A DNA stretch of 64,000 nucleotides, from NCBI RefSeq assembly GCF_024228315.1, contig NZ_CP100454.1:124001-188000 (forward strand), in the 5' to 3' direction. The position numbers and the translations under genes are program-made. The notes below the pieces were generated by a model. It saw nothing but the letters and a program-made list of their open reading frames with translations, was not told the DNA's origin and ran no database searches. This stretch comes from Halomarina pelagica. Lineage in GTDB: Archaea; Halobacteriota; Halobacteria; Halobacteriales; Haloarculaceae. Below, piece after piece: positions 13,187 to 20,303 of this stretch (position 1 is the first letter of the stretch; each line of letters opens with the position of its first letter).

Positions 13187-13243
13187 ACATGTGTGACTTA
13201 CGTCTGACACAGATTTATGGCATCGTGAGTGTATCCAAGGAAT

Positions 13244-14236
13244 ATGATAACGGCCGTGGTCTACTCCGAATCAGGCGGGACGTTCAAAACCACAATGACG
13301 GCCAACATTGCGGTCGCATTAGAGCGAATGGGTCAGAACACGCTCGTGTTCGATCTTGATCCACAAGAGGGAAATCTCACGAGCCTCTTCGATGTTGGCA
13401 AGCATCGAAGTGACCCAGATGCAGACAACCTCGTTAAGCACATCCTCGAGATGCCGGACGGCGACTTTCACGATCTGATTGAAACCTCGGCGGAAGGCGT
13501 CGACATTATACCGAGTCACGACATGCTCGGGGACTTCACGTCAAACCTGGAGCAAAAGATCTCGTATGAGACGGGGATGAAGAACATGAGTCGTGACGAG
13601 TATCCCCGATTCGAACTCCTGTACAAGTTACTCTGGGAGCGACAACAGCTCCACGAACAATATGACGCTATCCTTATCGACCCGAACGCGCGAGCGGAAG
13701 ATCTGCTCTACAACGCCATTTACGCACTACGGACACTCGTCGCACCCGTCAAGCCAGCGGGCAAGGGGAACCTGAGCCTGGAGGGCCTCGACGAACTCGT
13801 CGGGAACATGGAGAGGCAACTGGATATCGAGATCGGACTCTCGTGTGTCGTTCCCTCGGGCGTCGGTCAAACTAACGCCCACCGACAATACCAGAAGCAG
13901 TTCGAAGATACAGAGGAGTTCGCCACACCAGTCACGATCGGCAACCGCGAAAGTCTCATGGACGCAATGTGGGAAGCCCGAGGGTCGGCGTTCAAGGTAG
14001 TCGAGGAGCGCTGGAAGACCTTCGAAAGAGACGGCGAGATGGTGAGTGACCCCGGTCAACGACGAGTGCGTGACAGGGAGATCGAAACGCTACGGACGCT
14101 GTACGAACTTGCCTGGTTCATCGCGACCGAAACGTTCGGGGTCGACGTCGATCCCGTGCTGGAACTCGAGATTCAGGACTACGAGAAGAAGATCATCGAT
14201 CTACGGGAGGACACACCGGAGGTGACACCTGCATGA
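13244..14236 (+). CDS. ParA/Soj-family partition ATPase
   Basis: About 330 residues. The N-terminus AVVYSESGGTFKTTMTANIA is a deviant Walker A region in which the usual leading lysine of KGGxxKT is serine (S10-G-G-T-F-K15-T-T). The Walker A' segment VFDLDPQEGNLTSLF and the stretch AILIDPNARAEDLLYNAIYA follow. ParA ATPases position plasmid copies on the nucleoid. Start: a GTG at 13229 is possible, but the ATG at 13244 gives the standard short N-terminus. The stop overlaps the ATG of the next gene (ATGA), so the two form an operon. The missing signature lysine is unusual and could affect dimerisation-dependent hydrolysis. Confidence 0.85.
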   Translation: MITAVVYSESGGTFKTTMTANIAVALERMGQNTLVFDLDPQEGNLTSLFDVGKHRSDPDADNLVKHILEMPDGDFHDLIETSAEGVDIIPSHDMLGDFTSNLEQKISYETGMKNMSRDEYPRFELLYKLLWERQQLHEQYDAILIDPNARAEDLLYNAIYALRTLVAPVKPAGKGNLSLEGLDELVGNMERQLDIEIGLSCVVPSGVGQTNAHRQYQKQFEDTEEFATPVTIGNRESLMDAMWEARGSAFKVVEERWKTFERDGEMVSDPGQRRVRDREIETLRTLYELAWFIATETFGVDVDPVLELEIQDYEKKIIDLREDTPEVTPA

Positions 14237-16717: not shown

Positions 16718-16846
16718 TTTACACATCGATGACGGGGGGTGAGTTCGACGAGTATTACACTCCGACGGTGGAGGGGAGAATCCAGGGAGGGTTACACATC
16801 GACGACGGGGCGTCAGACGTGCGGCTTACACATCGATGACGGGGGG
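16718..16846 (+). repeat. G-tract origin-recognition-box-like repeats without an adjacent orc gene
   Basis: TTACACATCGATGACGGGG followed by two more G occurs at 16719-16739 and 16826-16846. A shorter copy TTACACATCGACGACGGGG lies at 16792-16810 and a degenerate one at about 16755-16776. All are on the same strand. The design (conserved 15-base core ending in a G tract) parallels the boxes around orc1 at 25 kb, but the core differs completely, so a different initiator would be expected. Possibly the remains of a second origin linked to the partition operon. Confidence 0.5.
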
Positions 16847-16976
16847 CGTGAACCTGATAATTGGTTGGAAATGGCCTTGTTAAAACCCTTGAGCAGTGAG
16901 AGGTATCAACGGTCGTGCTGCATACAGGGCGCGAGTCGGTCAATAGAGACGAATGGGGACCAAACCTGTCGAGAGG

Positions 16977-17371
16977 TCAGGAATCGGACTCGCGGACGAG
17001 CCCCGGGGCAAGCGCGACGTAGTGAAGCGTCCAACAGTCCGACCACTTTGTGCCCACCTCGTGCCCGTACTCGCAGAGAATGTTCGGGCCATCCAGCCCA
17101 TCGAGTCCACAGCACCCCGAGGTCCGTTCTCGCTTCTCGTGGAGCCAGATATTGATCACATCGGCGTTGTTCAATATGAACTGCCCAACGTGGTCCTTAC
17201 GGGGTTCTCGTCCGACGTTGCCACGGTGTAACTACCCACCGGTAGATAGTCTTCGCCCGCATACTCCTCGAGCGACGTTACCCACGGGTTCACGAGTACG
17301 GACGAGTCGGTGAGTTTGCTGACTGACGCTGTCAAAGCCGCCTCACACTCACCGCACTTGAAGACGACCAT
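16977..17371 (-). pseudogene. Haloarchaeal hypothetical protein, split by a frameshift
   Basis: The start MVVFKCGECEAALTASVSKL (ATG at 17371) runs to a stop at 17171. Shifting frame at about 17178-17185 continues the protein as FILNNADVINIWLHEKRERT, then CCGLDGLDGPNILCEYGHEV, ending ALAPGLVRESDS at 16977. The joined product is about 130 residues with Cys pairs CGEC, CC and a single C that could bind zinc. The two halves join naturally at a single one-base indel, so it is a recent pseudogene or a read error. Function not recognised. Confidence 0.6.
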
Positions 17372-17620
17372 TGGTTAGACGGTTGTAGAATACGCGTGGA
17401 TATATCTTGAGCGGGGGTAGGCTCGGGTAAATCTACCGAACTCTGAACGACTCATACACCGAATCCAAGGCTGCTGAATACAGCCTCTGAGTCGGTCACG
17501 GCATTCCTAACAGGAAAAAGCAGCTCTAACTACCCGTGCTGAATGTATAACGCGAGTCGGTCACACTCTACAGTGAATGGATATTTGTATTCTACCCGCC
17601 AGAACATCGAAAAAGAACGC

Positions 17621-18073
17621 ATGTCCGAAATCACCGTTCGCCCCAAAGGGTACGTCGAAGACTGCCCCGTCATCCGTCAGATCGGCGAGCGAGACCTGTA
17701 TCTCGGGAACAAGCACGCGGCAGATTCCGGGCAGCACAACCAGTCGTTCAGGTACGTCGTTTCGGTCTCGACAGACGACTATCCATTGACGACACATCAT
17801 CATCCGCTGGACGACGGACCGGGTAACGACTGGACGGCATTTGAACGGGCTGTTGATACGGCGCTTACGCTCTACCAGCAAGACGGCTCGGTTCTGGTTC
17901 ATTGCAAAGCGGGCATTTCCCGAAGCAGTACGGTTATCGCGACGGTGCTTGCTGCTGAGGAATCCCGACAGCTCCACGATGCGCTCTCGATTGTCCTGCA
18001 AGCCCGGCCAAGCGCAACGCTCCATCCTGCCCTCCACGAGCTGGCAGTCGTGTACCTAGCTGCCCGAACCTAA
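17621..18073 (+). CDS. Dual-specificity protein phosphatase-like protein
   Basis: About 150 residues starting MSEITVRPKGYVEDCPVIRQ; upstream in-frame starts would add a tail unlike the family. The signature loop HCKAGISRS (H94, Cys95 nucleophile, Arg101) matches HCxxGxxR(S/T) of cysteine phosphatases, and an acidic loop (HHPLDDGPGND, residues about 65-75) could hold the general acid. It is small, with only the catalytic domain. The substrate may be a phosphoprotein or RNA 5' end. It stands alone, flanked by copies of the dispersed repeat at 17471-17563 and 18147. Confidence 0.8.
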   Translation: MSEITVRPKGYVEDCPVIRQIGERDLYLGNKHAADSGQHNQSFRYVVSVSTDDYPLTTHHHPLDDGPGNDWTAFERAVDTALTLYQQDGSVLVHCKAGISRSSTVIATVLAAEESRQLHDALSIVLQARPSATLHPALHELAVVYLAART

Positions 18074-18288
18074 GTCCAATCTGCTGAACTCATCCCCTAT
18101 ATCTCGCACGGCACCTGTGACAGGGGCTGGTGAGGTTTCTACGACCGTGCTGAATAGAGAGCGCGTATCGGCCACTGGCCATTCGCCTTTTGGTGAGGAA
18201 TCGGATTGATAGATACAGACGAGCGTTACAACGCTCAGCAATAGTTACTCAAATGGTTTTACCCTACGGAGCATTCACGGATGTATTG

Positions 18289-18735
18289 ATGCGCAAAACG
18301 GTCGTTCTCCCGAAGTGGCGTGAGTCTCCGTCTGAGACGCTTGACGAGCCCAACAGCGCGTATGCCACTATCACACATCACGATGGCTACAGGCGCGTCA
18401 TGTTCTCTGGGGGAGTGAGTGTTGACGGTGATCTAGCTGAACAGGTAAGAACCGTCTTAGAGCGCCGTCAAGCGGCGCTCCATGATTTCGGAGGGAGCAT
18501 GGACGATATCGTAATTACCCGGTACTACGTGCGTGAAGACCACCTCAACCGGACAACACAGGCTTCGATTCACGAGGCCCGCGACGAGTTTTTCGATCGA
18601 CCACACTACCCAGCCAGCACGATGATCGGGACTGGATCACTGCTGGTCGAGGACGCACTCGTCGAAATCGAAATCGAGGCAGAAATCCCTGACGAGGATT
18701 GGGAGACAGACGTGCTGACAGAGGAAGATCCTTGA
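18289..18735 (+). CDS. RidA/YjgF/UK114-family protein
   Basis: About 148 residues beginning MRKTVVLPKWRESPSETLDE; an earlier in-frame ATG at 18253 is possible. The motif VMFSGGVSVDGDLAEQ, then DDIVITRYYVREDHLN and YPASTMIGTGSLLVEDALVE are the conserved core of RidA-fold trimers. The classical deaminase arginine of RidA (in R-DL-PNV-VE) is not evident in that place, so 2-iminoacid deaminase activity is uncertain; it may be one of the RidA paralogues with another role. Located between repeat copies, with no operon partner. Confidence 0.75.
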   Translation: MRKTVVLPKWRESPSETLDEPNSAYATITHHDGYRRVMFSGGVSVDGDLAEQVRTVLERRQAALHDFGGSMDDIVITRYYVREDHLNRTTQASIHEARDEFFDRPHYPASTMIGTGSLLVEDALVEIEIEAEIPDEDWETDVLTEEDP

Positions 18736-18960
18736 CAGAAGGTACACTTACCTACCGACAGATTCGTCGCTACCAGCCTGAAGCGAACGATGATCGTCTG
18801 CTGCATACACGCTCTGAGTGTTGCACGCGGCTACTGGCAGTGACTGGAGAGGTCTCTGTGGGAGTGCTGCATACAGGGCGCGAGTCGGTCAGGAGACGGC
18901 GCTCTCACTCAATGCATCGGCTCGGGAACCACGACCGGTAAATCGATCCACGATTGACGA

Positions 18961-19363: not shown

Positions 19364-20182
19364 TCAGAGTGCCTTGTCGATGTTGTGCGTGAGATAGCCA
19401 ACAACGAGTTCACGGAACTGCTTCCACCAGTGTCGTGAGCGGACGAATGCGCCATATTTCCGTTTAATGCGGGAGTTCACCGTCTCGTTCTTACTACGTT
19501 GTCCGTAGAGATCGGCGTCCAGTCGAGCGTTCCACGCCTTAAGAAGCGACGAAAACTCGCAGTGCTTGATGAGCGGTCGAACACCAGTCTCACGGGCTAA
19601 CGCGCGAACCTTCTGGTCGTCATATCCCTTATCTCCCGGGAGAATCGCTACTTCCCCGGTATTCCGCTTGATGAGCGACGGCGCGATTTGCGAGTCGTGT
19701 TTTCGTGCCGTCGTCACGTGTACGTCGAGAATCGCGTTCGACCTCGTGTCTACGAGAAGTGTGACTTCAGCTGCTGAATCGTCAGCTTCGTTCGCTTGGT
19801 GGTGTTTCGAGGCGTGACTACGGTCGACCCCGGAAGCGTCGATCCCGACGACACCGTTGGTTGGGAAGAGTGTGACCGAGAGATTGAGCAGGACGCGCCA
19901 AACCGCCATATCGAGCCGATTGAACGCCTTACATAGCGTTGAGGGTGACGGGAGTTCGTCCAGATTGATGGCTCTCCGAATCCGAGGCATCTCGATGAGT
20001 TCGTCTAGAAGCGTCCGGTACGTCGTATTGTTCCGAACCTTGAGACAGAGCAAGACGATATGCTGGTGGAGCGTGTACCGTCGTTTCGAGAACTTCGAAG
20101 AGTAACGAGCGACAGCTCGGCGTGCCAAGTGCATCGCTTGCTCAATAAACCGGAGCAACCGCGAATTCGGGAGGACTGCCAT
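19364..20182 (-). CDS. IS5-family transposase (intact)
   Basis: 272 residues, full length for haloarchaeal IS5/ISH-type DDE transposases. The DDE residues can be placed at GVVGIDASGVDRSHASKHH (first D), AILPGDKGYDDQKVRA (second D) and KNETVNSRIKRKYGAF (E). The N-terminal RFIEQAMHLARRAVARYS and PSPSTLCKAFNRLDMAVW are typical. The reading frame is unbroken, so it may still be active. Terminal inverted repeats were looked for within 60 bases on each side, but only weak matches were seen, so the element limits are not given. Confidence 0.85.
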   Translation of the reverse strand: MAVLPNSRLLRFIEQAMHLARRAVARYSSKFSKRRYTLHQHIVLLCLKVRNNTTYRTLLDELIEMPRIRRAINLDELPSPSTLCKAFNRLDMAVWRVLLNLSVTLFPTNGVVGIDASGVDRSHASKHHQANEADDSAAEVTLLVDTRSNAILDVHVTTARKHDSQIAPSLIKRNTGEVAILPGDKGYDDQKVRALARETGVRPLIKHCEFSSLLKAWNARLDADLYGQRSKNETVNSRIKRKYGAFVRSRHWWKQFRELVVGYLTHNIDKAL

Positions 20183-20303
20183 CCGGTCAGACTACCGGAC
20201 CAACCTGTAACTCTCTGAGGATTTAAACAGATCCGTCTATATATATGGTCCCAGAATGAGGGGTGATGATGCCTTCCATACGGCTGTCGTACCGACAGTC
20301 GAG

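Follow-up and report, generated by a model that had tools for sequence, protein, structure and literature searches.

Cassette systems known so far are the integrons, which are bacterial and found in some archaeal metagenome-assembled genomes, and, lately, the dif modules of Acinetobacter. Integrons (archaeal examples in PMC9668308, where Halobacter-, haloarchaea and Haloferax are not mentioned) are tandem arrays of single-gene cassettes with diverse cargo, one shared site each and an attI-like first site, and the haloarchaeal arrays described here are alike in all of these. Unlike integrons, the haloarchaeal arrays have no detectable hairpin and no adjoining IntI, each of their cassettes has two functional core sites, their genes lie in either orientation and they are enclosed in a TIR-bounded shell. 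The dif modules of Acinetobacter (pdif/XerCD; PMC13141974) are small genes between short, two-armed sites that alternate in direction; the modules reside on plasmids, carry no recombinase and are lost two at a time through crossover in the spacer, again as in the haloarchaeal arrays. However, pdif sites have an 11-6-11 geometry and both of the alternating modules have cargo (PMC13141974), whereas the haloarchaeal sites are 29 bases long and differ in core between R1 and R2, a constant linker of 37 bases forms every second module, the units share one orientation and IS5-type TIRs bound the arrays; the two also belong to different domains of life and differ in sequence.

Two further systems are close to these arrays. 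Archaeal Xer/dif dimer resolution (PMC2958812, PMC8371274) likewise combines a short palindromic site with a universal Xer-like recombinase, but archaeal dif is single per chromosome and 11-6-11, whereas the R sites are many, with variable arms and two core types. Haloarchaeal IS5-family IS have in common with the cassette elements a TIR of the type GGCTCTGTTGAAATCCTC and an 8-base target duplication; unlike these IS, the cassette elements examined have cargo without a transposase, and R sites inside their ends. A search of the open full-text literature, as distinct from subscription papers and preprints, returned no description of such a haloarchaeal system. The system works in the manner of integron cassettes or Acinetobacter dif modules, and in form it is close to the latter.

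Results

The repeat is part of a 95-base double site

The window, that is, the whole stretch of 64,000 nucleotides that was analysed, corresponds to positions 124001-188000 of contig C1 in the genome of Halomarina pelagica (G000; 4.6 Mb, 7 contigs). The original prediction had described in it six copies of a 28-base dispersed repeat between genes. When the interval 16.6-19.3 kb of the window was blasted against 30 related genomes, the similarity continued beyond the left end of the repeat for 60-100 bases, indicating that the repeat is one end of a larger unit. Alignment of 16 units yielded an element of 95 bases, in which the sole gap was a one-base shift in one copy; the repeat is real, but the 28-mer is only part of this conserved unit. 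The unit, termed here a double site, consists of an R1 site (about GTGCTGCATACACCCTCTGTATCTCGCAC), a linker of 36-37 bases and an R2 site (about GTGCTGAATACAGGGCGCGAGTCGGTCAC). R1 and R2 are each 29 bases long, with 11-base arms that form inverted repeats around a 7-base core (11-7-11), and they are opposite in direction, facing each other across the linker. The cores read AGAG(G/C)nT in R1 (reverse-complemented) and AnnGCGC in R2; in 112 double sites, positions 15-18 of R2 are GCGC in at least 95% of the copies and positions 13-15 of the reverse-complemented R1 are GAG in at least 98%. The R sites are numerous and vary in both arms, with two types of core. They have the inverted arms around a core of 5-8 bases, and the crossover inside that core, that are features of tyrosine-recombinase sites. 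What was called a 28-base dispersed repeat is, in fact, a set of recombination core sites of two kinds, which are arranged in a fixed way and mark cassette boundaries. The features of the locus, in window coordinates, are as follows.

16873..16914, + strand: left-end leader with a transposon-type TIR (GGCCTTGTTAAAACCCTTGAG...) and a subterminal motif, immediately preceding the first R2 (left-end profile from 33 TIR-bearing copies: 85 bits)
16915..16943, + strand: R2 of the left end, attI-like, lone (core AGGGCGC)
16977..17371, - strand: cassette 1, small gene broken in two frames (two overlapping short frames)
17471..17499, + strand: R1 of double site 1 (27.5 bits, R1 matrix)
17500..17535, + strand: linker of double site 1, 36 bases
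17536..17564, + strand: R2 of double site 1, variant core
17621..18073, + strand: cassette 2, dual-specificity protein phosphatase gene (Pfam DSPc, E 6.8e-13; ORF 17543-18073, start at ATG 17621 placed by eye)
18081..18109, + strand: R1 of double site 2, 7 bases past the phosphatase stop codon (33.4 bits, R1 matrix)
18110..18146, + strand: linker of double site 2, 37 bases
18147..18175, + strand: R2 of double site 2 (42.7 bits)
18289..18735, + strand: cassette 3, RidA / endoribonuclease L-PSP family gene (Pfam Ribonuc_L-PSP, E 6.5e-12; ORF 18190-18735, start at ATG 18289 placed by eye)
18798..18826, + strand: R1 of double site 3 (32.3 bits, R1 matrix)
18827..18863, + strand: linker of double site 3, 37 bases
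18864..18892, + strand: R2 of double site 3 (28 bases the same as in the R2 at 16915)
19364..20182, - strand: IS5-family DDE transposase beside the array (Pfam DDE_Tnp_1, E 3.3e-11)
20217..20234, - strand: TIR at the outer end of that IS (GGATCTGTTTAAATCCTC); the cassette-element TIRs are related to it

Double sites 1 (17471-17564), 2 (18081-18175) and 3 (18798-18892) correspond to covariance-model matches at G000:C1:141472-141563, G000:C1:142082-142174 (E 6.0e-22) and G000:C1:142799-142891 (E 4.2e-22), respectively. Scored with a matrix derived from the copies themselves, those at 16915, 17471, 17536, 18147 and 18864 got 28.6-34.1 bits, far above chance, as the top score obtained with the same matrix in ten simulated 64-kb sequences was 16.6 bits. 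The fifth of the six predicted copies (18798-18826) was weak by this matrix (12 bits); by the R1 matrix, which was derived from 112 double sites of relatives, it is a good R1 site. The count of six has to be corrected, since a seventh copy, the R1 at 18081-18109, had been overlooked, and the predicted copies comprise all the R1 and R2 sites of the window except this one. That the two outermost copies (16915 and 18864) are identical over 28 bases was confirmed. The copies do form pairs, although there are three pairs rather than the two reported, with spacings of 65, 66 and 66 bases within the pairs, and the variation noted among the inner copies is indeed structured, the reason being that there are two site types. 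As had been claimed, the copies separate small unrelated genes (the broken small gene, the phosphatase gene and the RidA-family gene lie in between) and are not remains of one coding sequence. The statement that they match no IS end of the window is right for the 28-mer, but the 42-base stretch that precedes the first copy opens with a TIR, and this TIR is related to the IS5-family element's end at 20217-20234. Genome-wide, an exact search (up to 3 mismatches) returned the two outer copies only, and a profile search returned ten double-site matches, some of them partial.

The suggested link of the copies to transcription starts or conserved structure found no support. As single-stranded DNA, five double sites folded on either strand no better than dinucleotide-preserving shuffles (z -0.80 to +1.05, ten strands), and a comparison of Rfam families with the window gave no match, on which grounds a structural RNA was rejected.

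The array of the window may be inactive, as the window revealed no right end for it, the gene of cassette 1 is broken and double site 1 has an atypical R2 core. This gene looks like a small cysteine-rich protein gene in broken form. Close to the array on its left side (16719-16850) there are three 25-base direct repeats (TTACACATCGATGACGGGGGG) that resemble replication-origin boxes and sit downstream of a ParA-like gene (13229-14236). A second cluster, with a left end and double and single R sites, is found on a 145-kb replicon of the same genome (G000:C4:79314-84025).

Double sites form arrays across one archaeal order

Using a sequence-only covariance model (E <=0.001), we detected the double site in 141 of 195 genomes of the order, representing 51 of 67 genera, the best E value being about 1e-24. 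In a draw of 247 genomes from the phylum 33 were positive, every one of them in the same order and none in other orders. Among the hosts are Haloferax, Haloarcula, Halorarius, Haloglomus, Haloprofundus, Haladaptatus and Halobaculum. Double sites follow genes, and the rich genomes carry them in tandem arrays, large examples of which are found in genome G161 (C1:56-79 kb) and on the Haloprofundus salinisoli plasmid NZ_CP083664. Adjacent double sites were in the same orientation in 84 of 84 cases, the gene intervals between them had a median of about 700 bases, and the cassette genes themselves lie in either orientation relative to the site. The cargo is diverse and includes HalOD1 proteins, transporters, regulators, CopA/CopZ-like (copper transport) and MerA-like (mercuric-reductase-like) proteins and many genes without known function. 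A viral origin was considered and rejected, there being no exact match in viral contigs and none in phage records.

Cassettes are lost or gained exactly within the cores

The plasmids of Haladaptatus sp. YSMS36 (NZ_CP119783, L129) and QDMS2 (NZ_CP119792, L134), which share a region that is ~98% identical, differ by exact loss or gain of cassettes, where either direction is possible. QDMS2 is without L129 11669-12063, and its junction is an R2xR2 hybrid composed of the left part of one parental R2 and the right part of the other, with the crossover within the shared AGCGC. It is also without L129 12864-14052, where the junction is an R1xR1 hybrid with the crossover within the shared CTCT. At both junctions zero bases were lost or gained and the crossover lies in a shared core of 4-5 bases; since the parental sites differ elsewhere, homologous recombination over the double site is unlikely. 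The removal of modules in pairs by conservative crossover between like sites, as seen in these plasmids, is a feature of dif modules. About 370 bases of the QDMS2 plasmid (L134 12124-12492) are missing from its sister plasmid L129, inserted shortly after a double site.

Segments are also shared between more distant hosts. A two-cassette block of 2362 bases is 98.3% identical between Halorussus halophilus and Halobaculum roseum, which belong to different families; it starts at R2, and the leaders outside R2 differ between the two hosts. Two loci of Halorarius litoreus (G015; L026 and L029) have a common left context through GTGCTGCATACAGAGCG, up to the core, and diverge beyond it. Of 81 ends of shared segments, 11 were within 15 bases of a core, versus 0.69 expected (P about 1e-10 if ends are independent, which not all of these HSP ends are). 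Conservative site-specific recombination is the only mechanism known to us that accounts for the junctions, and these three further cases agree with it. Three Haladaptatus plasmids (L131, L132, L133) share a region with sharp ends (about 10966 and 13107) that are not at R sites, so a different recombination process acts at these ends.

Arrays can lie within IS5-type ends

Lone R sites lie inward of TIRs of the GGCTCTGTTGAAATCCTC type, at 42 bases on the left and 37 on the right. Arrays are bounded by a left end (TIR leader and R2) and a right end (R1 and TIR leader), and whole arrays can lie within TIRs that match those of IS5-family IS, with 8-base target duplications. In elements with both ends the duplication was perfect (8/8) for L031 (1.34 kb, in the source genome), L032 (14.85 kb) and L050 (2.44 kb), and 7/8 for the TIR-bounded element L038. 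An IS5-family IS of the source genome (L030 4699-6371) has the same TIR as the cassette elements and an 8/8 duplication, and its transposase is 77% identical to the transposase at 19364-20182 of the window. These IS may belong to the ISH1 subgroup of IS5. The target of L032 is uninterrupted in Haloglomus halophilum, where the two flanking genes are adjacent and the element is absent; for L031 no empty target was found among genus relatives, none of which retains both flanks. The cassette elements examined carry cargo and no transposase, which suggests that they are mobilised in trans, and the transposase at 19364-20182 is a putative source of the TIR-mediated step. TIRs in common with an autonomous IS and target duplications of the same length, both found here, are features of non-autonomous IS5-type elements.

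L032 (700-15552) has copper-ATPase, copper-chaperone-like and mercuric-reductase-like genes aboard. The IS5-family IS at L030 4699-6371 and L023 12838-14211 are longer than their transposase requires and may carry passenger genes; the TIR-bounded stretch of L023 also contains a reverse-strand lipoprotein-like ORF.

A candidate recombinase

No PF00589 gene was found near the array of the window or that of G161, and a scan of 20 loci of short tyrosine recombinases revealed no sites nearby, except at L084. Short tyrosine recombinases (195-230 aa) were therefore rejected as the dedicated enzyme, their loci being without sites and only singletons lying near arrays (L065, L136). An integron-type integrase adjoining the arrays was likewise rejected, as none was found in the window, in G161 or at the 20 short-recombinase loci, and so were serine recombinases (PF00239), which are absent from 8 of 12 site-bearing genomes. 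Of the tyrosine recombinase families, a single Xer-like one occurred in each of the seven array-rich genomes that were checked; its protein (G000:C1:2990318-2991331) is the leading candidate and would act in trans. All 157 good genomes of the order have the family, site-free genomes included, and for this reason its co-occurrence with the sites is no test of its role. In Haloferax volcanii, deletions of four single xerC/D-like genes are reported to be viable (PMC7776575). No chromosomal R-like site was common to all genomes (7 of 30 had none at up to 3 mismatches), and this makes it less likely that R is the host dif site; a chromosomal dif of the same sequence as R was discarded on this ground.

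Discussion

The repeats are very probably the recombination sites of a haloarchaeal gene-cassette system, of which we observed the site structure, the arrays and their orientation, conservative junctions, TIRs with target duplications and one uninterrupted target. In the proposed model a cassette would be a gene together with its 95-base double site (R1, a linker of ~37 bases, R2). A recombinase, presumably a tyrosine recombinase acting in trans, would carry out strand exchange in the core, pairing R1 with R1 or R2 with R2, and the exchange would remove or insert entire gene-plus-double-site units with zero bases lost, probably through a circular cassette intermediate. The difference between the R1 and R2 cores would keep the units in one orientation, and this is the simplest reason for the uniform orientation that we can offer. 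The entire array would behave as a non-autonomous transposon that generates 8-base target duplications, with an IS5-family transposase presumably supplied in trans for the TIR step.

A narrower version of this model, with which its probability overlaps and which we regard as possible though rather doubtful, is a haloarchaeal system of dif modules operated by the Xer recombinase of the host, where R is the plasmid form of the chromosomal dif. R is short and palindromic with a central crossover, successive sites are opposite in direction, constant modules of 37 bases lie between the gene modules, and the Xer-like protein is found universally and represents the only family common to the seven array-rich genomes. 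On the other hand, the geometry is 11-7-11 and not 11-6-11, the genomes do not all share an R-like chromosomal site, and the pairing of cargo with linker and the TIR shell are not among the described features of dif modules (PMC13141974). We withhold the label of dif modules because an 11-6-11 geometry and a relation to the host dif were tested for and not found.

It is improbable that the unit of 95 bases is a repeat of MITE-like or IS-derived nature which enters intergenic positions, with arrays arising by its repeated insertion and by homologous recombination between copies. The IS5-type TIRs and 8-base target duplications at the outer ends would agree with such an origin, but the internal double sites have neither TIRs nor target duplications, and 84 of 84 neighbouring pairs have the same orientation. 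Moreover, the exact R1/R1 and R2/R2 hybrids fall in cores of 4-5 bases, a stretch of homology much too short, and too precisely placed, for homologous recombination, and the segments common to different families have their breakpoints at R.

A true integron of the IntI/attC type is more improbable still, even though single genes are parted by imperfectly palindromic sites of ~95 bases and form tandem arrays with an attI-like first site. The folding signal is absent in all ten strands (z -0.80 to +1.05), no integrase lies beside the array of the window or that of G161, crossover occurs at both R1 and R2 cores rather than at one site on one strand, and the genes are in either orientation relative to the site. 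Accordingly, since single-strand folding and a linked integrase were tested for and not found, the label of integron is withheld as well. Least credible is that the repeats are regulatory elements or promoters ahead of small genes: the copies are intergenic and conserved, but genes lie on both sides of them and on both strands, the hybrid junctions are exact and there is neither an RNA family nor a folding signal.

Returning to the cassette model, we hold with about even confidence the wider proposal that haloarchaea evolved a cassette-shuffling platform independently of integrons, with a dedicated or co-opted recombinase, two cores per cassette that fix orientation and IS5-type ends that move arrays, and that this platform would be one of the chief means by which genes are exchanged throughout the order. 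If the model is true, this would be a third cassette system, present in about three quarters of the sampled genomes of a well-studied archaeal order, and it would explain the swapping of single genes between haloarchaeal families. The double-site model provides a profile with which cassette arrays can be searched for, and which recombinase is at work becomes directly testable in the genetically tractable Haloferax.
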